From positions 1 to 28,141 of IMG/VR virus record IMGVR_UViG_3300050028_000013: a DNA stretch of 28,141 nucleotides; one strand, written 5' to 3'. Positions 3,100-28,141 of this stretch are shown here, one piece after another. Made by a program: the position numbers and the translations under genes. Source of the stretch: a virus. The notes under the pieces were generated by a model. It saw only the letters and a program-made list of their open reading frames with translations, did not search any database and was not told the DNA's origin. The stretch's first letter is position 1. The number at the start of each line of letters is the position of its first letter.

Positions 3100-3709
3100 G
3101 CGCACGGCTGCAATCATCATGCGCCGACTTGACATCGACCCCAAGACGGTGGCCCTCATGCCTACCGAGCCAGCAGAGATTCTGACGCGATGCTTGGGTG
3201 GGAAACGCAAAGACTTCCCTCGCAAGCAGGTGTTTGCATACTGCGCGGCATCCACCATGCCCGTCTGCCGAAAGTTCCTCGATTCCATCGGGACCATCGG
3301 TAAAGTTGATCTGGCAATGCTTTCGTTTGAGGCGATGTGCGTCAAAGCCGCGGTAAGCCCCCTGGAGATGCTTGGAGCCATCCTTATGTCCGCCAAGTCG
3401 CTCAAGGCAACTGAGAGCGCCCTGAAAGTAATTCTGGCACACCCTGACGTGATTGATACAACCGTCGAGACAGCAAAGATTTCCGGACCCGCCGGATACT
3501 CTGACCGGAGGATGCTGCATGAGACGGTTGGGTTCCTTCCAACTAAAAAGGGTGGAATGGAAATCAATATCGGGCTTGGCCGTCCAAAAGAAGATGACGA
3601 GGAAGAAACGGACGCGGATGATGCGTGGAGTGAGGTGTTTCCTCCTCTTGGAAACAAGATTCAAGACTGGTCGGAGAACAAGCACAAGTTGCTGGAAGGT
3701 GGTAAGTAG
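2972..3709 (+). CDS. Possible small terminase subunit
   Basis: The gene lies directly before the large terminase, the usual place of the DNA-recognising small subunit. TTG 2972 has GGAG at 2961-2964; ATG 3119 would avoid the overlap but has no ribosome binding site. The first 45 residues are basic and Pro/Ser/Lys-rich, as expected for a DNA-contacting arm. The middle is helical (VDLAMLSFEAMCVKAAVSPL, EMLGAILMSAKSLKATESAL). The end is acidic (GRPKEDDEEETDADDAWSEV), as in a tail that contacts a motor partner. No sequence motif proves the function. At 245 residues it is within or slightly above the size of known small terminases. Confidence 0.4.
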   Translation: MPVKKKPPFLVSATGRSLKPKKSTKPSSQKSVVLRKPSSLAPKRTAAIIMRRLDIDPKTVALMPTEPAEILTRCLGGKRKDFPRKQVFAYCAASTMPVCRKFLDSIGTIGKVDLAMLSFEAMCVKAAVSPLEMLGAILMSAKSLKATESALKVILAHPDVIDTTVETAKISGPAGYSDRRMLHETVGFLPTKKGGMEINIGLGRPKEDDEEETDADDAWSEVFPPLGNKIQDWSENKHKLLEGGK

Positions 3710-3711
3710 AC

Positions 3712-5898
3712 TTGTACTCTGAAAAAATTGTCGAACTCACGATTCGAGACTTTGAACGCAGAAATGGGTGGGAGCCTGTCTTCCATACCGTAGATGAGTG
3801 CGACGAAAAAGCTGAATACATTGAAAGCACACAGGAAATTGCATCCTCTAAGGGTGGATTACGGCGTGGATGGTTTTGGAAAGATGGCAAGGCTCCTACA
3901 GAAAGAAGAGTCAAGGAAATCGAGCGGTGGGTCGAAAATGAACGGTTCCTTTGCTTTGCTTCCGCTGAGTATTTTGTAACTCGCTATGCCTACATCCGCG
4001 CCGCCAACACCCGGTTGGTTCATTTTGACTTCCGCATTGCCCAGCGAATCTACCTCTCGTTCCTGGCCGAGTGCGACGATCAGCAAATAGCCATTCAGCT
4101 TTTCATTCTCAAAGCTCGACAATTAGGTGTGTCCACCGTCACAGCATTGTTCTTTATGCATAGGATACTTGAGGTAGCCAACACCTATGCGATTGTGGCT
4201 TCGGTGCAGGTTGAACAATCTAAAAAACTAAAAAACATGATGGACACCTGCATGGACAAGCTCCCATTCTGGCTCAGGGTGGGGCAGACTTCCACTAAAG
4301 CAAGTGAGCCAAAATGGGCGAATGGTTCTCGTCTCTCTGTCCAAGCAGGAGCGCAGGAAGTAGGTATCGGACAAGGAGACTCACCTTCCTGCCTTCATAT
4401 TTCTGAGCTTGGCGACTACACGAACCCGAAGCACACGCTCGATGAAGGGTTGTTCCCGGCCTGTCACCAACTGCCATCTCTGTTCATGGTTCTTGAGGGA
4501 ACCGGCTCGATGTCTACTACGTGGCAAAAGGAAAGTTGGGAACTCTACTCGTCAGGTAAGGGAAGGTTTACAGCATTCTTCATCCCCCCGGCCTGTGCGA
4601 CTGACCTTTACCCTCCAGAGTCGTTCCTGAGACAGCACCCCGTTCCTGAGCCGTGGGATAGCTTCGTGACTGACCGTACCCGCAAGATGCGGCGACGGGG
4701 AGAGTTGTTTATTCGGCAGACTCCGTACCTGTCAAAAGTATTAGGCCGAAAATGGGAGATGCCGAAAGAGTTTCAGTGGTTCTGGCAATGTGGGTACGAG
4801 GAGGCGGTAGCCAAACACGCTGAGCGGGAATTTCTCGCGGCCAACGCCGTCACCCCGGAAGACGCCTTCCAATCGAAAGACGATCCGATTTTCACGCACG
4901 AGACAATCACTCTGGTAACGGAAGCGAAAGAAAAAGCTAACCTTGCCTACGCGATAACCGGGCGAACGATTCTCATGGGAAACGACAACCAACCCTACGA
5001 GCCAAATCCAGTAGACGTGAATCAGGATGAATCGACGATAGTTCTCGACTGGACCGGATTGGACGACAACGAGTACCGATGGAATCTGGTTCCCTTGAAG
5101 CAGTTTGATGACTCGACAGACGAGGCTTGCTTTGACAAGTTGATGATCTTCGAGGGGCCGCAACCAGGAGCCGATTACGCGATTGCCATTGACACGGCGG
5201 GTGGTCTTAACAAGCCAAACGAGGATCGGGCAAGTTTGAAGGTAATTAAAAACGGAGGCAGCACGGAGCCTACCGTGGAGGTAGCTTCATTTGCTTCCAT
5301 CCGCGTCAACTCTCCGCAAATGTCGCGCATCGCCGCCGCTATCGCTGTTCTCTATGGGACAGATGGAAGCGGTCACATCACCTCGGCGAATCAGCAGGTG
5401 GTCAAGTTTATCATCGAGCAGATTAGAAAGCGCGGTGACGAGTGCCAAAGCCAGTTGAAGATTATGGGATTCCTCGACCACCACATCATGCTCCGCATCG
5501 ACAAGAAAGGGAACGTCTTGCAGAATAGCGGACATCAGGAGGGCTGGTACACCCGCGACTACAGCCGGTCCTACCTGTTGGAAAGATTCGTGGATGCAGT
5601 CAATACCGGATGGCTGATTCTGAATGACCCAATCGTAATCAGGCAGCTTGCCACGTTCGTCAGAAAACAATCGTCAGAGGGAAAGTATGAGATGGTCCAC
5701 CAGACAGGTCAGCACGACGACGCAATCTTCGCCGCCGCCTTGGGTTGGACGACATTTCACGAACTTGAAAACTCCGCGCAGCGTATTCAAAGCCGGTGGC
5801 CTCTGACCAAAAAAGTCAAAGAGGCGGTCGATTTGTGGTGCGACCGGAGTATGCTTGTGGATTCAGGAAGTAGTTATTCTTTGCCTTTAGGGGCGTAA
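3712..5898 (+). CDS. terL: Terminase large subunit (DNA packaging ATPase/nuclease)
   Basis: This 728-residue protein powers DNA packaging and cuts concatemers. The ATPase part has the adenine/Walker A motif LKARQLGVST (K134-T142), the R-Q-L-G-x-S-T form usual in phage terminases, and a Walker B-like CLHISELGDY with the catalytic Glu near 232. The C-terminal RNase H-like nuclease shows YAIAIDTAGG (Asp near 494, first metal ligand) and QHDDAIFAAALG (Asp 669/670, last ligands). The start is TTG 3712, two bases after the previous TAG (3707-3709); no ATG fits better. It acts with the portal at 7186. The N-terminal 100 residues before the ATPase core are longer than in compact terminases. Fully intact by motif inspection. 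Confidence 0.93.
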   Translation: MYSEKIVELTIRDFERRNGWEPVFHTVDECDEKAEYIESTQEIASSKGGLRRGWFWKDGKAPTERRVKEIERWVENERFLCFASAEYFVTRYAYIRAANTRLVHFDFRIAQRIYLSFLAECDDQQIAIQLFILKARQLGVSTVTALFFMHRILEVANTYAIVASVQVEQSKKLKNMMDTCMDKLPFWLRVGQTSTKASEPKWANGSRLSVQAGAQEVGIGQGDSPSCLHISELGDYTNPKHTLDEGLFPACHQLPSLFMVLEGTGSMSTTWQKESWELYSSGKGRFTAFFIPPACATDLYPPESFLRQHPVPEPWDSFVTDRTRKMRRRGELFIRQTPYLSKVLGRKWEMPKEFQWFWQCGYEEAVAKHAEREFLAANAVTPEDAFQSKDDPIFTHETITLVTEAKEKANLAYAITGRTILMGNDNQPYEPNPVDVNQDESTIVLDWTGLDDNEYRWNLVPLKQFDDSTDEACFDKLMIFEGPQPGADYAIAIDTAGGLNKPNEDRASLKVIKNGGSTEPTVEVASFASIRVNSPQMSRIAAAIAVLYGTDGSGHITSANQQVVKFIIEQIRKRGDECQSQLKIMGFLDHHIMLRIDKKGNVLQNSGHQEGWYTRDYSRSYLLERFVDAVNTGWLILNDPIVIRQLATFVRKQSSEGKYEMVHQTGQHDDAIFAAALGWTTFHELENSAQRIQSRWPLTKKVKEAVDLWCDRSMLVDSGSSYSLPLGA

Positions 5899-5916: not shown

Positions 5917-6378
5917 ATGGGAAACGTGCAACTGTGCGGCAAGGAGCGGACGGTAGTCTACCGGGAGCTTGGTTCTTCCAGAATACTCGGATTCGGGATT
6001 GAGGGCGCCCCACCGATCAACTGTTCAGAGGGGCTGCGCTACGAGACAATCACTGTATTCCATGCCCACGAACTCGACCGCTTCATGGACCAATACCGTG
6101 CGCAGCACATCCGAGACGAGGAGCAAGCGGCTCTCGTAAGGTTGAATCGGGAGCGTTCTTTCCGACAATCCAATCGAAGTGCAATTATTGCACGAAACGC
6201 GCATCTTGACCCGTTCAACCGGGCGGTCAATTTGAGGATGCTCGACGCTCAGGATAAGATGTATGAGGAGACGCTTTCCCGTAGAATCAGGGCAGTTCCC
6301 CGGCTAGCAGCGGAGATGTACGAGGCTGGCGGTGATGACACGAGGATCGTGAAAGATGCAATGAAGGGGTCAATGTGA
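5917..6378 (+). CDS. Unknown protein between terminase and HNH gene, 153 residues
   Basis: ATG 5917 follows AAAGGGGGT at rather long spacing. The first third is beta-like (CGKERTVVYRELGSSRILGF); the rest is a long Arg/Ala/Glu-rich helix (RAQHIRDEEQAALVRLNRER, RRIRAVPRLAAEMYEAGGDD). No family is recognised. It ends in TGA at 6376-6378 overlapping the GTG start of the HNH gene. Because the HNH gene seems to begin with a copy of the portal N-terminus, this protein was probably once directly upstream of the portal and coupled to it. Confidence 0.65.
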   Translation: MGNVQLCGKERTVVYRELGSSRILGFGIEGAPPINCSEGLRYETITVFHAHELDRFMDQYRAQHIRDEEQAALVRLNRERSFRQSNRSAIIARNAHLDPFNRAVNLRMLDAQDKMYEETLSRRIRAVPRLAAEMYEAGGDDTRIVKDAMKGSM

Positions 6379-7196
6379 GACTGGAAGAGCCAGAGCGTCA
6401 ATTGTCGTGGCAGGCTGGCTGGCGTAAAAAGCGTCGTGCTGACATGACTACGCAGGAGCGAGAAAGACTCCGCGAGGCCAAACGGAAACTTCGGGCCAGA
6501 ATGACCACGGAACAGAGAGAGACGGAACGTATTAAAAGCAGGGAAAGTAAGTTCCGTCGGTACCATGACCCAGATTTAATTGAAAAACTAAGAGAAAGAA
6601 GCAGACTGTGGGCGCAGAATCTCGCTCCGGACAAAAAGGAAGAAAGAAAGAAAAAGCAGGCTATTCGGGCCAAGGCGAGACGCGATAGCATGACCAAAGA
6701 GCAAAGGGAGGCTGAGAACGCATATCAGCGAGCATGGAAATCTGCTTCCGAGGAGAGGAGAGATGCTTCCCGCCAGAAAAACCGCGAATGGTACGCCACT
6801 AGAGACGCAGAACAGAAACGTCGCAAAAATGAGATTGAGAAGGCGCGGCTTTCCGCTAGAGATGCCGAACGAAAGGCGCGGGACAAGGCGGTAAAGGCTG
6901 AATGGAAGCACTCCCACAGAGAAGTGAGCAGGGCGGTTAATCGTAAGCGAAAAGCTGCTGCTAGGGCTGGGGGAAATTTTACGGCTCAAGAATGGACGGA
7001 ACTTGTCGAACAATGCGACCATCGGTGTTTATGCTGCCAGAGACGGGAGCCAGAAATAACGCTCACCGTAGACCACATTGTTCCGGTAAGTAAAGGCGGA
7101 TCAAACACGATTGAAAATCTCCAGCCGTTGTGCGGTTTGTGTAATTCTAAGAAGGGTACTTCGATAATCAGATACGGGGTGCTGAATGCTGCATGA
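6375..7196 (+). CDS. HNH endonuclease with long charged N-terminal region
   Basis: The C-terminal 60 residues are a classic HNH nuclease: CDHRCLCCQRREPE gives the first C-x2-C zinc pair (about residue 214), then TVDHIVPVSKGGSNTIENL with the catalytic DH and the Asn, then CGLCNSKKG with the second zinc pair. Residues about 20-200 are Arg/Lys/Glu-rich and probably one long coiled helix. HNH proteins beside terminases can help large terminase cut DNA at packaging; free-standing HNH genes can also be homing elements. GTG 6375 overlaps the previous TGA (GTGA). The first 14 residues match those of the portal in exact register (see the findings), which argues for insertion at the portal start. The end overlaps the portal start by 11 bases. 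Confidence 0.9.
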   Translation: MRLEEPERQLSWQAGWRKKRRADMTTQERERLREAKRKLRARMTTEQRETERIKSRESKFRRYHDPDLIEKLRERSRLWAQNLAPDKKEERKKKQAIRAKARRDSMTKEQREAENAYQRAWKSASEERRDASRQKNREWYATRDAEQKRRKNEIEKARLSARDAERKARDKAVKAEWKHSHREVSRAVNRKRKAAARAGGNFTAQEWTELVEQCDHRCLCCQRREPEITLTVDHIVPVSKGGSNTIENLQPLCGLCNSKKGTSIIRYGVLNAA

Positions 7197-9216
7197 CGAT
7201 GAAACAAGAGTGCTGAGCTGGCAGGCACCGCCCCGTGAAACGGACGGCTCCCAACTAAAGGGATGGATGGACGAACTGGTTCAAACCGGCGATTCATGGG
7301 TCCAAGGACAGCCGGGAATCGCCAATCTCGACAACGACATTCAGCTTTTGATGGGGACCGGCCAGAACCGGGATATGCCCTCGAATCTCCTCCAGCCGGA
7401 CATCCGCTCTTTCGTTGAGACCATTACAGACCTTCGCCAGATCGCCACAATGGGATCAAAGGCGCAACAGGCAAAGAAGACCATTGCGCTCTACAATGAT
7501 ATTTTCAAGTTCGTATTCTGGGATTCACTCTACATCCCCAACACACGCAAGGCTCTCCAGTGGGCCATTTTAGGCCGTGGGTACAAGTGGCAGAAGTTTG
7601 GGCGCAACAAGTTTGGATGGGGAAAGCCGAAGATCATCTTCGAGTCTCTTGGTCCGCGCGAGTTTCTTCCTGACCAGATTCCCCACAATAACGATATTGG
7701 CGGATGCTATGCCGGCACGATTGTATATCCGATGGGGATAGCCGAGGCTCATGCCCGCTTCCCAAAATTCCAAGAATGGCTCAAGCCGATCTCTCAATAC
7801 TCGTGGTCGAAGTACGGATCACTAGGAATGGCGCGGCGCTACGACTTCTACGACCGGCACAGGTTTCAAGGCGACGGCGACTGGCCGAACAAGTATATTG
7901 AAATCCGCTACCACTTCATTCACGATCTCAGAATCAACGATACCGGCTACACGCAGCCAATGGGCGTCAAAGGATCGACGTGGGGATATGATGTTCCTAC
8001 GCTGGGCGACTTGATTGTGAGCGTAGACCCAAACAACGGGTTGCCAAGGTCAAGAACTGCTGAGATTGCAGACTGCCGTATGTACCCTCGGATGCGCCTG
8101 GTCATCACTTCACCATCCTGCCCGTTCCCGATGTACGACGATACAGCTTTCGATATGCATGGAGAGATTCCCGTCACGCAGCACGACGTGAATGATTACC
8201 CGTGGGCCGCGCTCGGCTACTCGATTGTCTCAGGTGTGAAGGGGTTGGAAGTCGCTCGTCGTGATCGAATGTCGGACATCAACACCGTGAAGGCTATCGA
8301 GAAAGACCCGCCCTTGGGCACAGACGTATCGACAGGCGTCTCCCGCACCCAGATGGACAAGCTCGACCTGCTCCACGCGCAAGGCGTGCGCGTGGGTGGC
8401 AAAGGCGATCCGTCCAAGTGGACTCGCTCATTGCTTCCTGAGGGCGTCAAGATCGAGGAATCCGACTTTAAGGCTGTGGAGATGCTGAATGCTGGAGTCA
8501 AGGCCGCTTTGGGACTAGCTGACATAGCTTCCATGCGGGAAGTCAAAGGCAATATGTCGGACCAGTCATTCGACAAGTTTGTTGAGAACCTGGGTCCGGT
8601 GGCTAAGGGGATTGCACTCAATCAGTGGATTGCCAACTCCAAAGACGCGGATATGTTGAAGTACAACATCGCGCAATACTTCACCGTGGACATGATTACC
8701 GACATGATCGGTCCAGAAGGTGTAGGCATTGAGACGTTCGACAATGACCCAAACACTCTGGTTCCTTCGCATCTCCCCGGAGAGGACACGTCGAACCTGA
8801 GCGCACATTCCCGACTCGACCGGGCGAAATGGTATTGCGAGAGACTCAGAGTAGTAAACACCCCTGCTCAGTTGCTTAACGTGACACATATGCAGGAGAG
8901 AATGCTTCAGATGTTCACCCTCCAGCAAAAGATTCCGATTGACACTGAAAGCACGATGGAAAAGATCGGCATCCCTGACTATCAGGTTCGCCACGAAAAG
9001 TGGAAAGAGGAGCAGTTGGAAGATGCTATCTGGAAGCTCGAAGTCGAGAAGACGTTGCAGGAAAAGGCAAAGTCTCTTGGGATGGAGCAACCACAGCCTC
9101 CGCAGCCTGGGCAGGGTAAGGGCGGTGGAAGAAAGCAGACGGGGGCTAAACCCCAACAGGCTGCGCAAAAAGGTTCTCAATCAGGGCAGGTGAGAGTGGT
9201 TAACAAAAGCAGTTAA
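7186..9216 (+). CDS. Portal protein
   Basis: This 676-residue protein should form the dodecameric channel at one head vertex through which DNA enters and leaves. Evidence is the position after the terminase and before scaffold and capsid genes, the length (typical for podovirus-type portals), and portal-like content: LQPDIRSFVETITDLR near the start, WAILGRGYKWQKFG, GYSIVSGVKGLEVARRDRMS in the stem/clip region, and a long helical C-terminal barrel segment (HEKWKEEQLEDAIWKLEVEK) followed by a Pro/Gln/Gly-rich tail. ATG 7186 lies inside the HNH 3' end. No strong ribosome binding site is seen, so translation probably depends on termination of the HNH gene. Sequence similarity was judged by eye only. 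Confidence 0.82.
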   Translation: MLHDDETRVLSWQAPPRETDGSQLKGWMDELVQTGDSWVQGQPGIANLDNDIQLLMGTGQNRDMPSNLLQPDIRSFVETITDLRQIATMGSKAQQAKKTIALYNDIFKFVFWDSLYIPNTRKALQWAILGRGYKWQKFGRNKFGWGKPKIIFESLGPREFLPDQIPHNNDIGGCYAGTIVYPMGIAEAHARFPKFQEWLKPISQYSWSKYGSLGMARRYDFYDRHRFQGDGDWPNKYIEIRYHFIHDLRINDTGYTQPMGVKGSTWGYDVPTLGDLIVSVDPNNGLPRSRTAEIADCRMYPRMRLVITSPSCPFPMYDDTAFDMHGEIPVTQHDVNDYPWAALGYSIVSGVKGLEVARRDRMSDINTVKAIEKDPPLGTDVSTGVSRTQMDKLDLLHAQGVRVGGKGDPSKWTRSLLPEGVKIEESDFKAVEMLNAGVKAALGLADIASMREVKGNMSDQSFDKFVENLGPVAKGIALNQWIANSKDADMLKYNIAQYFTVDMITDMIGPEGVGIETFDNDPNTLVPSHLPGEDTSNLSAHSRLDRAKWYCERLRVVNTPAQLLNVTHMQERMLQMFTLQQKIPIDTESTMEKIGIPDYQVRHEKWKEEQLEDAIWKLEVEKTLQEKAKSLGMEQPQPPQPGQGKGGGRKQTGAKPQQAAQKGSQSGQVRVVNKSS

Positions 9217-10888: not shown

Positions 10889-12157
10889 ATGAACGATCCA
10901 CTTTACAATCAACGAGACGCGGTATCGCGGGAGATGGTCCGCAAAGGGACCGTCATCGACTGGTTCGGAACCAACTATCCACTGATGACTCTCCTGCGCG
11001 AAGCGGGAATCGTTGACTTGGACTTCCAAGGCACCGGCGTCAGGACTGCGGGCATTTACGACTTGGCTCACGGTTCATCGACGGAGCCGGGTGCGACCAT
11101 CAACCCCACGCGCAAGCAGATGGTCACCGACACCAAGTACGATATCCGCTTCATGGAAGCCGACCTCGAAGTAGAGCGGACGGAATACGACCTCTACAAC
11201 GCCGCCGGAGAAACGCAGATTGCCGATCAGGAGATGATTGACAACTACTGCATGACGCAACGGTTGGAGTCGATGGTTGAGATGCAGGCGTACCAGCACG
11301 GACAGTGGAACTCCGGTTCCTCGTTTGGTTCGTCCGCTGGCGTGGCGCAAGACCGGCATCGCGCGATCAACGGTTTCGATGAGCAGTTCAGCAACGGTGT
11401 CGATCCGGGTCCGTTCGGGAACTACTACCTCACGACCGGCGGCGTGACGCGCAATGGTGTGGTTGGGCAGGCGTTTAACTCGACCCCGTACTACTGCGGA
11501 ACTCCGACTGGCGCGGCAGGGTCAATCAACTACTCACACTTCCTCTTGGCGAATGCCCGTCTCGGCACGCTGGGCGCAAAGGCGCGGGTTGGATTCACCA
11601 GCTTCTACGGATGGGGCGCAATCGCCCTGGCCTTCCGTCAGCAGTCTGTGGTCCTTCAGTTGGATGTGAAGGAGGGGACCGACTTCGGCTGGCCCTCGGT
11701 GGACTTCAACGGCATGAAGATTCATGCCGATCCTCTGGCTCCTTCTTCGGCGGCATGGCAGACACTCCCCGGCGGCAATCCGGGCGCGTTTGGCACAACC
11801 AGCCAAGCCAAGTTCTACGACGGCGCGGGCGGCACAACGCAGCTTGTTCCGTTCCTCACTCCGACGTTCAAGCTGAACGGAGCGAATATCGCCACTGGCG
11901 CTCTGTCTCCGACCGGCTCAAACATCCCGTCGAACACGACCATCAATCCGGGCGAAGTGCTTTACTTCCTTGACCCGCACGCGATGGTTGCTTTGAAGCC
12001 CAAGCCGGGTTCCGGTTGGACGATGACGTTCGATGAGAATCGCATCCCCAATAACATTTCTTCGAGCATCCTCTACTTGCGGTATGCGACAAACCTTTTC
12101 CCGGACCAGCCGACACACGGCATGATCCTGTACGGATTCAAGGGGGTTGGACAATAA
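10889..12157 (+). CDS. Major capsid protein (probable HK97 fold)
   Basis: This 422-residue protein follows the scaffold-like gene and has the size and mixed alpha/beta make-up of phage capsid subunits. Visible parts are an N-terminal arm, a charged region that could be the E-loop (DTKYDIRFMEADLEVERTEY), a long helix (DNYCMTQRLESMVEMQAYQHG, broken here into its core) as in the spine helix, and a beta-rich P-domain/A-domain end (GEVLYFLDPHAMVALKPKPG, ILYLRYATNLFPDQPTHGMI). ATG 10889 has GAAAGG upstream. It ends two bases before the decoration-like gene. The fold is assigned by context and look, not by a search. Confidence 0.78.
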   Translation: MNDPLYNQRDAVSREMVRKGTVIDWFGTNYPLMTLLREAGIVDLDFQGTGVRTAGIYDLAHGSSTEPGATINPTRKQMVTDTKYDIRFMEADLEVERTEYDLYNAAGETQIADQEMIDNYCMTQRLESMVEMQAYQHGQWNSGSSFGSSAGVAQDRHRAINGFDEQFSNGVDPGPFGNYYLTTGGVTRNGVVGQAFNSTPYYCGTPTGAAGSINYSHFLLANARLGTLGAKARVGFTSFYGWGAIALAFRQQSVVLQLDVKEGTDFGWPSVDFNGMKIHADPLAPSSAAWQTLPGGNPGAFGTTSQAKFYDGAGGTTQLVPFLTPTFKLNGANIATGALSPTGSNIPSNTTINPGEVLYFLDPHAMVALKPKPGSGWTMTFDENRIPNNISSSILYLRYATNLFPDQPTHGMILYGFKGVGQ

Positions 12158-13692: not shown

Positions 13693-14721
13693 ATGAGTCT
13701 TGGAACGGTAGCAATGAATTTGACGAGGTTGGTTCCCGATTCACCGTTGCCACGGTGTCAGACGGGAGTCTATCGCGCTCTGGAGGCTATCTATAATCAG
13801 ACAGACTGGAGCTTCCAAAAAGGATTCTCTGGTTGGCTTGTTCCAGGGGTACTCTTCGATACCGGAAGTTTTACCACGACTCCGTACTCGAATCAGGTCA
13901 TCGCGGACGCGGTGGCAACTGCGGCGCTAATCGCTTACGCCGGAATGCCGTTGCTGACGAATCTTCAATACAGAAACCCGGCATACGCGATCTACGACAT
14001 TGTGGGCTACGACTACAATACGATCAATCCGGGGTTCGTGACTCTGACTCTCGACCGTCCGTGGATGGAGCCAACAATCGGGTCAGGACAGCCGTTCATG
14101 ATCTATCAGGCGTACTTTGTGGCCCCAGTTCAAGACTTCCGAAAGTTCATCTCGATTCAGGATTTTACGAATGACCAGCCTATTGATTTCTGGTCGAAGA
14201 CTCAAGCCGATCTTGCCAGCGATGACCCGCAGCGGCAGGACTTCTCAATTCCTCTGTATTGTGTTCCGGCGGGATTCGATAACAGGCCGGGAAGTTCTAC
14301 TCCGGGATGGCCCAGATTCGAGTTGTGGCCGCATCAGGGAAACTACTGCCCGTACACGCTCAACTATCGTCGCACTGGACCATTGCCGCAGACGCAGAGC
14401 GACTGGCAGACAATGTTTCCTCCCTCTCCGATCACAGAGAATATGCTGGAGTTCAAAGCCAAAGAGATTCTTCTTCTCGACAAGGCGGCGGACATGGAGG
14501 CAAAAGTTCCTTGGTCCGGAAAAGGGATGATGCTTCTCTCGACGATGGCTCAGAATACGTATTTTGAACTGTTTGGGAATGTTCTCTCCATCGACTTGAA
14601 CTTGGACGGAGAGAATTTTACGCACACGCACCAACCCGGAAAGTGGCAGGCCGGGGAGCCTTATGCAACCATGAATGCAGGATTGAATCTGGGTGGTTAC
14701 CCATCTGGAGGAGGAGTCTAA
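13693..14721 (+). CDS. Structural protein, probable head-tail connector or tail component
   Basis: ATG 13693 has a strong TAAGGAG site. The 342-residue protein is soluble and rich in aromatic residues (ALEAIYNQTDWSFQKGFSGW, DFRKFISIQDFTNDQPIDFW, PRFELWPHQGNYCPYTLNYR). The MEFKAKEILLL-type helix near the end (NMLEFKAKEILLLDKAADME) resembles those of head-completion and adaptor proteins of podoviruses, where a similar 'middle' protein follows the capsid unit. No enzyme motif. The stop overlaps the next start (TAATG). Function from position. Confidence 0.55.
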   Translation: MSLGTVAMNLTRLVPDSPLPRCQTGVYRALEAIYNQTDWSFQKGFSGWLVPGVLFDTGSFTTTPYSNQVIADAVATAALIAYAGMPLLTNLQYRNPAYAIYDIVGYDYNTINPGFVTLTLDRPWMEPTIGSGQPFMIYQAYFVAPVQDFRKFISIQDFTNDQPIDFWSKTQADLASDDPQRQDFSIPLYCVPAGFDNRPGSSTPGWPRFELWPHQGNYCPYTLNYRRTGPLPQTQSDWQTMFPPSPITENMLEFKAKEILLLDKAADMEAKVPWSGKGMMLLSTMAQNTYFELFGNVLSIDLNLDGENFTHTHQPGKWQAGEPYATMNAGLNLGGYPSGGGV

Positions 14722-26161: not shown

Positions 26162-26629
26162 CTACATCATCGTCCCTGTGAGTTCATTGGGATTGCGGGA
26201 TGCATGGGCGCGGGAAACCATATCGTTCGGGTCACCGTATCCCTGCACGCCGCGCTGTGCTGGAGCGGGATCGACAGACACGCCTTGAATTGACGGCATG
26301 GATGTCATCTGGAGAACAGGAGCCATTGGCTGACGGTTTTCCAGTTGAGCGATGAGTCCGATTCGGTACTGAACTTCCTGCTCGATTCCCTGCAACTCGG
26401 CTTGAGCGGCCTGAAACTTGCTTTGGGCTAGCAGGTACTCGGCGTGTGATTGGGTGAGGCGCTGACGGCCGGCAGTTCGTTGGCCGACCAGTTCGACAAC
26501 CTGAGATTGAAGTGCAACGACTGCGGGTGATGTCACAGGCGGTAGAACCGGGAGTGGCGCGGGTGTGGCAGCAACAGCCTCTTGCGGGGCCAAAGGTGGG
26601 GCGTTTGGTACTGTTTTACGTCTCGGCAT
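26162..26629 (-). CDS. Minus-strand protein with Pro-rich start and coiled coil, 155 residues
   Basis: The minus-strand ATG is at 26627-26629, with no strong ribosome binding site. The N-terminal 40 residues are Pro/Ala-rich (PLAPQEAVAATPAPLPVLPP). Residues about 40-95 form a probable coiled coil (LQSQVVELVGQRTAGRQRLT, FQAAQAELQGIEQEVQYRIG). The end is disordered and polar. No family is recognised. The stop TAG touches the GGAGGA site of the 86-residue gene, so the two are one translational unit. Why a two-gene unit faces the other way within late genes is open: a later insertion, or a regulator or chaperone of the spike, are possible. Confidence 0.65.
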   Translation of the reverse strand: MPRRKTVPNAPPLAPQEAVAATPAPLPVLPPVTSPAVVALQSQVVELVGQRTAGRQRLTQSHAEYLLAQSKFQAAQAELQGIEQEVQYRIGLIAQLENRQPMAPVLQMTSMPSIQGVSVDPAPAQRGVQGYGDPNDMVSRAHASRNPNELTGTMM

Positions 26630-26675: not shown

Positions 26676-28141
26676 ATGAAGAACCTGTTTGTGTTGATCG
26701 TCTTAGCGGTATCTCTTCCGGCCTCGGCTCAACTATCGACGGTGAATGGCTGGTGTGAACAAGGGGCGCAATCGGCTGTTGTGTCGGGTATGAACTCGAC
26801 AAACAAGTTGCAGGGGATCATTCCCGGATGCACGGTGACGCCATATCTGACAGGCACTACCACGCTGGCTACCTACTATTTATCTCTCACGGGAAGCCCA
26901 CAGACGGGACCATTTACCGCCGATACGAATACAGGTCAATATCTCTTCTATGCGGCAAACGGAATCTGTTTGGATGTTTATCGGAGTAGCGGAACAACTG
27001 ATACAGGTGTGACCCCTAACACAGGCGGAGGCGTCTCACAGATCGTACCCGGCACAAACGTTACCATCTCGTCCACGGGTCCTAGTGGTACAGGGATTGT
27101 GACGATCAACTCCACGCCAAGCGGTACTTCCCCGCTCACCACGAAGGGTGATCTGTACGGCTACGGCACAACGAATGCACGCATTCCTGTTGGAACAGAC
27201 GGATACGTGTTGACAGCGGATTCAACCCAGGCGGTAGGGCTGAAATGGGCGGCGGGTGGTGGCTCGATGACCTACCCCGCCGCAAACACCATAGGTGTGT
27301 CGAACTCAGGTGCAACAGCATGGCGTTCGCCGCTTTATAGCGACATCACCGCGCTCTTTGGCTCTGGTTCCTGCTCCGGCTATCTCAAGAGCGATGGAAC
27401 GTGCTCTACACCCTCTGGCGGCGTCTCCAGCATCAACGGCGTGCCGGGCGCATTCACATTCTCTGGCTCGGGCGTGAGTTGCTCTACTACGACCTGCACA
27501 TTCACTGGATCTGGTTCCGGCATTGGCAGCATTGCGTGGGCAATCCCTTCCTGGCTCACGGCCTCGCCTCCAACCATCAGCGCCAGCGGAACTCAGACAT
27601 TCACCCCTACGACCGGACAGACCTCGCATCAGGTCATCGGCACTTGTGGGACGGGTACCAGTTTTGTGCCGTGCTCGCTGGTAGCAGCAGACTTGCCCAC
27701 AATTCCCTCCACTCAGGTTTCTGGTCTGGGCACCTTTGCTACTCAGAACTACGCTACTCCGCCGGCAATTGGAGGAACGACTCCAGCGGCGGGAACATTC
27801 ACAACTCTCTCCGCCAAGAACCTGTCCAGCATCGGCCCGCGCTACGACGTGACGCAATATGGGGCCGTGGGCAACGGCTCAACAGACGACACGGCGGCGA
27901 TCCAGGCGGCCTTCAATGCCTGCTGGAATAATGGCTCAGGAGCTTACGGCGGAATTGTGCAGTTTCCCGGCAACAAGAGTTATGCAATATCTTCAACGAT
28001 TAACGCGTGGGATGGTTGCAGGATAGATGGATCTGGCGGGAGTAAATCTGGTGGATGGCAATCCGCTGCGCTGAGCTGGATTGGGGCTGACGCGCACACC
28101 GCCTATAGCATCACCGGATTTACCGTCGGGTCAAACACTTC
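26676..28141 (+). CDS. Tail spike with Sec-like signal peptide and pectate-lyase-type domain (truncated at window edge)
   Basis: From ATG 26676 one frame stays open to the window edge (488 codons, no stop), so the gene is cut. Residues 1-18 are MKNLFVLIVLAVSLPASA: one Lys, a hydrophobic core and an A-S-A cleavage site before Q19, a textbook Sec signal peptide. Residues about 150-192 hold the fibre motif PLTTKGDLYGYGTTNARIPV, then GYVLTADSTQAVGLKWA. From about residue 390 comes YDVTQYGAVGNGSTDDTAAI, then GGIVQFPGNKSYAISSTI, the start of a Pectate_lyase_3 right-handed beta helix, as in polysaccharide-cutting spikes. The visible part contains 11 Cys, unusual for a cytosolic tail protein but normal for an exported one. 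It is divergent from the minus-strand unit and lacks a clear Shine-Dalgarno site. Confidence 0.85.
   Translation, partial: MKNLFVLIVLAVSLPASAQLSTVNGWCEQGAQSAVVSGMNSTNKLQGIIPGCTVTPYLTGTTTLATYYLSLTGSPQTGPFTADTNTGQYLFYAANGICLDVYRSSGTTDTGVTPNTGGGVSQIVPGTNVTISSTGPSGTGIVTINSTPSGTSPLTTKGDLYGYGTTNARIPVGTDGYVLTADSTQAVGLKWAAGGGSMTYPAANTIGVSNSGATAWRSPLYSDITALFGSGSCSGYLKSDGTCSTPSGGVSSINGVPGAFTFSGSGVSCSTTTCTFTGSGSGIGSIAWAIPSWLTASPPTISASGTQTFTPTTGQTSHQVIGTCGTGTSFVPCSLVAADLPTIPSTQVSGLGTFATQNYATPPAIGGTTPAAGTFTTLSAKNLSSIGPRYDVTQYGAVGNGSTDDTAAIQAAFNACWNNGSGAYGGIVQFPGNKSYAISSTINAWDGCRIDGSGGSKSGGWQSAALSWIGADAHTAYSITGFTVGSNT

Follow-up and report, generated by a model that had tools for sequence, protein, structure and literature searches.

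To our knowledge, tailed-phage virions are completed in the cytoplasm, and we know of no tailed phage whose spikes are added elsewhere in the infected cell. In P22, tail spikes are known to attach in vitro to particles that are already finished. The spikes of Pan3, Pam1, P22, and Sf6 (gp14) share with the gene analyzed here a homologous or similar docking domain, a modular glycan-active C-terminus, and a position in the tail module. The gene differs from all of them in a signal peptide (SP) that precedes the docking domain, in a conserved pair of cysteines (Cys27 and Cys52), and in a Cys-rich shaft.

Three other systems each show part of this combination. WceF of Pantoea stewartii, a trimeric enzyme resembling a tailspike, is exported and retains a P22-like head domain (PMC7949094); it is thus similar in export, fold, and head domain, but it carries a Tat signal and belongs to a bacterial exopolysaccharide operon rather than to a phage. 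Lys44 of fOg44 and the SAR endolysins are tailed-phage proteins with Sec signals (PMC6116005), but these are lysis enzymes and not parts of the virion. Agrobacterium phage Milano has Cys-rich virion proteins and disulfide-linked spikes, while export is not described for it (PMC10811340). We found no report of SPs on tailed-phage receptor-binding proteins in the open-access literature, and the novelty claimed here is provisional to that extent. Below, SP+ and SP- denote genes with and without an SP.

Results

The window, i.e., the whole 28,141-base stretch analyzed here, is a complete linear IMG/VR record. Its terminase, portal, capsid, adaptor, and tail proteins show distant homology (24-30%) to those of Tunturi_1 and Tunturi_2, two podophages that were isolated with the acidobacterium Tunturiibacter psychrotolerans as host (PMC11924767), and a closer relative, L028, has the same gene order around the spike (Table 1). 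The spike is encoded in a virion structural module together with portal, capsid, and adaptor. In most relatives the spike cluster directly follows the tail adaptor, and in Tunturi_1/2 it is flanked by the gp11 adaptor and by later tail genes, whereas in the window the spike gene stands behind the tail module. An HNH endonuclease gene (positions 6375-7196; phrog_6050, E=3e-18) is found between the terminase and portal genes.

From ATG 26676 the spike frame continues without a stop codon up to the final base, and 488 residues can be read (26676-28139); the gene is truncated, since the record ends inside the frame. As originally predicted, it begins with an 18-residue SP that has a hydrophobic core and an ASA cleavage site: a lysine at position 2 forms the n-region, the core is uncharged, and the c-region has small residues at -3 and -1, with Gln following the cleavage site. 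No RR occurs in MKNLFVLIVLAVSLPASA, as a twin-arginine (Tat) signal would have, and the +1 residue is Gln rather than the Cys of a lipobox (signal peptidase II), so that the segment is of the Sec/signal peptidase I type. The +1 Gln (window position 26730) is nearly invariant in orthologues, and the mature N-terminus could become pyroglutamate. We also confirmed the predicted count of 11 cysteines in 488 residues (positions 27, 52, 98, 233, 243, 269, 274, 324, 333, 416, and 448).

Table 1. Features of the window and of its spike gene
Feature	Position	Strand	Remarks
Terminase large subunit	3712..5898	+	phrog_2, E=6e-9; 27% to Tunturi_2
Portal protein	7186..9216	+	24% to Tunturi_1/2 portal
Major capsid protein	10889..12157	+	query for collecting relatives
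Tail adaptor homologue	13693..14721	+	29-37% to L002, L020, L021, L023, L025
Tail protein, 998 aa	16730..19726	+	84% to L028, 30% to Tunturi_2 gp32
Conserved gene upstream of spike	26162..26629	-	62% to L028, same position
Sec/signal peptidase I type SP, MKNLFVLIVLAVSLPASA, followed by Q	26676..26729	+	predicted; conserved in orthologues
Head-binding (virion-docking) domain with conserved Cys27 and Cys52	26730..27038	+	alignment, profile search, AF2 model
Fibre module, phrog_32934	27105..27257	+	residues 144-194; present as well in Microcystis phages LMM01 and MaMV-DC
Fibre module	27420..27704	+	residues 249-343; 78% to first SP-bearing fibre of L002
Fibre module GTFATQNYATPPAIGGTTPAAGTFTTL	27693..27833	+	residues 340-386; common to unrelated phages
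Right-handed beta-helix start, PF12708 (formerly Pectate_lyase_3)	27849..28043	+	ended by contig end

Fibre modules that recur in other phages make up the central part of the protein. The predicted Pectate_lyase_3 domain is indeed present, as PF12708 (residues 392-456, E=9e-8); because the gene is truncated, the match covers only positions 4-64 of the 213 in the profile. PHROG tail-spike families match the same residues, and the C-terminal domain is complete in relatives. The C-terminal modules differ between relatives, with PF12708 in the window and a GDSL esterase in L028 and L002, in line with the module swapping usual in receptor-binding proteins.

The domain behind the cleavage site is homologous to a virion-docking domain of known structure. 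We aligned 26 such domains, and an hmmsearch of the resulting profile against the PDB retrieved the tail spike of cyanopodophage Pan3, as solved in a tail-complex structure (E=3.8e-5), as well as, weakly, the chain of Pam1 labeled "Tailspike head-binding domain" (E=0.076). An AF2 model of the domain was all beta (pLDDT 76). Its best Foldseek matches in the PDB included Pan3, Pam1, P22, Sf6 gp14N, and WceF at E values from 0.01 to 1, with podophage tail complexes at the top (about 0.01), and matches in BFVD were pectate-lyase tail spikes of uncultured phages; since Foldseek alone is not significant here (best E 0.01), the significance comes from the sequence profile search. A scan of genome contigs for the domain, aimed at copies in bacteria or prophages, gave one weak match only.

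Known spikes have their docking domain at the very N-terminus with no SP, a feature that is not strictly definitional and from which the window spike departs. In Pan3 the matched part starts about 20 residues from the N-terminus, which apparently leaves no room for an SP plus a mature N-terminal stretch, and the residue at the position of Cys52 is Ala. The SP and the cysteine pair would thus either have been added to a virion-docking domain or have been lost by Pan3. Within the alignment Cys52 is present in 26/26 domains and Cys27 in 25/26, the exception being L060, the SP- copy. Both cysteines are absent from L197, which has an SP. Each of these is a single case, and the pattern of loss is compatible with the predicted Cys27-Cys52 disulfide.

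Using a profile of the domain behind the SP, and hence with no selection for the SP itself, we collected 33 distinct orthologues (up to 90% identity). SPs were scored by a home-made test based on charge, an uncharged hydrophobic core, and the -3/-1 rule. An SP was present in 31 of the 33, 26 by the test and 5 by eye (L057, L090, L095, L062, and L067, which the test had missed owing to a Lys in the c-region or to a profile match starting downstream); L106 was ambiguous and L060 had none. Close relatives of the window supplied five more copies (L191, L193, L194, L196, and L197; L192 is an additional docking-domain match outside these five), all of them SP+, bringing the total to 38 distinct orthologues, of which 36 are SP+, 1 is ambiguous, and 1 lacks an SP. 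Small residues occupy -3 and -1 in most orthologues, and +1 is Gln in 21 of the 22 that were tabulated; the remaining one reflects a tabulation shifted by one codon. Likewise, all 16 distinct open reading frames that have a readable N-terminus and a fibre module of the window begin with an SP-like segment, and the sequences behind it differ among them. The search with the docking domain extended this set by seven loci. The sole orthologue clearly lacking an SP (L060:14174-16954) has a strong Shine-Dalgarno sequence, starts with MATPPVTLDAVQG..., and contains 0.65% Cys with no Cys27. It offers a naturally occurring control for the idea of export.

The SP is also constrained at the codon level. 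In a subgroup of four orthologues, 47% of the differing SP codons were synonymous in frame, compared with 12-17% in the other frames, 8% upstream, and 74% in the docking domain; this excess indicates that the segment is translated and under constraint, though less so than the docking domain. A stop codon lies three codons upstream of ATG 26676. The Shine-Dalgarno sequence of this ATG is weak, which might favor a true start further downstream, with the hydrophobic segment not made. We consider such a start-site artefact barely credible and rejected it: orthologues conserve the segment, with constraint on its codons, strong Shine-Dalgarno sequences precede the SP starts of several relatives, no Shine-Dalgarno-like sequence precedes the downstream candidates GTG6, TTG7, GTG23, GTG36, and ATG39 of the window spike, and no conserved downstream start that would remove the segment was found in the orthologues.

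In both cultured phages the trait extends to the whole fibre cluster. In Tunturi_2 the genes gp12, gp13, gp14, gp16, and gp17, which are all the genes of fibre composition in the cluster, are SP+; they are consecutive except for the small gp15 and directly follow the gp11 adaptor. The four large ones contain 1.5-2.7% Cys, whereas the other virion proteins are SP- with 0-0.8%, and Tunturi_2 encodes no SP- protein of fibre composition longer than 212 aa. Tunturi_1 has the same gene set, also SP+, and the large spike and fibre genes of both phages are Cys-rich. Capsid, portal, and terminase belong to the same lineage as in the window, and gp12 has the same SP and docking domain. The main text of the isolation paper (PMC11924767) mentions neither signal peptides nor mass spectrometry. 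Two further Tunturi_2 genes start with other kinds of export signal: gp79, annotated "tail protein" (L029:36010-37209), with a lipoprotein signal (LLTGC), and gp99 (L029:42227-42538) with a twin-arginine-like one (RRSFFK).

The SP-bearing spike is thus not confined to one contig but recurs across a group of soil podophages that includes two cultured ones. We could reject a one-off in a single contig, as the SP recurs both in orthologues and in relatives selected by capsid, and contamination by a host gene, as cultured phages carry SP-bearing spikes. A requirement of the host was rejected as well: Tunturi_3, which infects the same strain, and Tunturi_4 and Tunturi_5, which infect other strains of the genus, have fibres that are SP- and mostly Cys-poor (several small fibre-region proteins of Tunturi_5, with 1.1-1.8% Cys, are the exception), so that the trait belongs to the phage lineage and not to the host.

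To avoid selecting on spikes, relatives were also collected by capsid protein alone, and relatives gathered around the Tunturi_3 capsid served as the control clade. In the window clade 43/64 fibre-like genes of ≥300 aa were SP+ (the SP- remainder includes several head proteins or start and frame miscalls), against 1/237 other large genes. The corresponding counts in the control clade were 9/55 and 1/238. The values for non-fibre genes of ≥300 aa double as an estimate of the false-positive rate of our test, and at this background rate the SP of the window is not due to chance. Presence of an SP was linked by computation with cysteine content. Median Cys in SP+ and SP- fibres was 1.9% versus 0.99% in the window clade (p=0.001) and 1.6% versus 0.34% in the Tunturi_3 clade (p=2.6e-5), and it was 1.98% versus 0.74% among large genes of the first set of loci, all uncorrected for shared ancestry. 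Beside an SP+ fibre in L198, from the long-contig relative G001, lies a 326-aa SP- open reading frame with 3.4% Cys (3444-4490), whose start may be broken or misread.

SP+ fibres are also found, frequently in runs of two to four, on contigs that appear from their remaining genes to come from different phages. L003 encodes a major head protein of the HK97 type, L015 and L019 encode tape-measure proteins of long-tailed phages, L017 an internal virion protein, and L014 a portal of another family. Two to four consecutive SP+ fibre genes are present in each of L003, L004, L007, L010, L018, and L023; no match to the window capsid was found in the examined stretches of these contigs, L023 excepted. 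Four members of the Tunturi_3 clade (L121, L122, L127, and L134) carry an unrelated second SP+ N-terminal domain (QQPQ...NGVAPGY..., first 150 aa), in which two cysteines occur together or are both missing (L118 and L125). A search for cultured homologues of this second family gave one partial match, and similar searches with the SP+ fibre families of L003, L018, and L004 found none.

Discussion

The window product may well serve a podophage relative of Tunturi_1/2 as its receptor-binding tail spike, synthesized as a precursor for Sec, exported, and then docked; we give this reading an even chance. That a broad group of tailed phages has spikes that are Sec-exported, oxidatively folded in the periplasm, and docked at or after lysis, completing assembly outside the cytoplasm, is a wider proposal that we hold tentatively, at somewhat short of even. 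In the sequence of events that we infer, the SP would target the spike chain for export to the periplasm, and cleavage after A18 would leave an N-terminal Gln. Disulfides would form there, Cys27-Cys52 in the docking domain and others in the shaft and beta-helix, and the spike would trimerize outside the cytoplasm. Upon lysis, tails set free from the cytoplasm would meet the waiting periplasmic spikes, which would dock onto them via their head-binding domain. Export, periplasmic maturation, and docking at lysis are the simplest account that fits both an export signal and a docking domain. Several points count against it: spikes of tailed phages are, as far as we know, otherwise added in the cytoplasm; L060 has the docking domain with no SP; and Tunturi_3/4/5 infect the same host genus with SP- fibres. 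The Milano spikes are Cys-rich and disulfide-linked with no export noted (PMC10811340), and, as WceF illustrates, a protein may have a head domain and yet not attach to a virion (PMC7949094).

The main rival is a secreted non-virion enzyme that degrades exopolysaccharide or destroys or masks receptors during infection, like WceF or superinfection-exclusion proteins. An SP combined with enzymatic C-termini (PF12708 and GDSL) suits such a role, and WceF, exported with a P22-like head domain, is a precedent (PMC7949094). We nevertheless regard it as unlikely, at perhaps one chance in five, as the head-binding domain has been inherited together with portal, capsid, and adaptor and the genes are part of the tail module, directly behind the adaptor in most relatives. 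Moreover, Tunturi_2 forms plaques (PMC11924767) and would be left with no large receptor-binding protein, and L060 retains the same gene in the same place with no SP. The original prediction is therefore supported in part. Its Sec export reading is well supported by the sequences, given the SP in 36/38 distinct orthologues and the constrained codons, whereas its leaning toward a free secreted depolymerase or masking factor has lost ground, since a head-binding domain behind the cleavage site and SPs on every large fibre or spike gene of Tunturi_2 make it likelier that the spikes are the virion's own.

It is less probable still, and in our view distinctly so, that the spike retains an uncleaved hydrophobic N-terminus, which would contribute to the docking site or form a membrane-active tip, with no export. 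This would agree with the cytoplasmic assembly of known spikes, export being here a prediction. It does not sit well with the presence of all three SP regions, with small -3/-1 residues in most orthologues and +1 Gln in nearly all, or with the homologous Pan3 docking domain, which starts with no such segment, and it leaves the link with Cys content unexplained. A host-surface adhesin or receptor mask of the lysogenic-conversion type, for which use in the virion would be secondary or absent, seems very improbable: Tunturi_2 does also encode lipoprotein-type proteins such as gp79, but the spike N-termini have no lipobox, the entire fibre cluster has SPs, and integrase or recombinase genes are reported for Tunturi_3-5 only and not for Tunturi_1/2 (PMC11924767).

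For annotation, export followed by docking would mean that SP-bearing fibres of phages could be mistaken for secreted proteins of the host, and expression of such spikes may call for removal of the SP or for an oxidizing compartment. The cultured Tunturi_1 and Tunturi_2 on Tunturiibacter make the export idea directly testable. If the spikes are exported, disulfides would become usable by receptor-binding proteins, and the spikes of coinfecting phages could mix on released particles. The last assembly step would then take place outside the cytoplasm, making the periplasm of the infected cell an assembly compartment.
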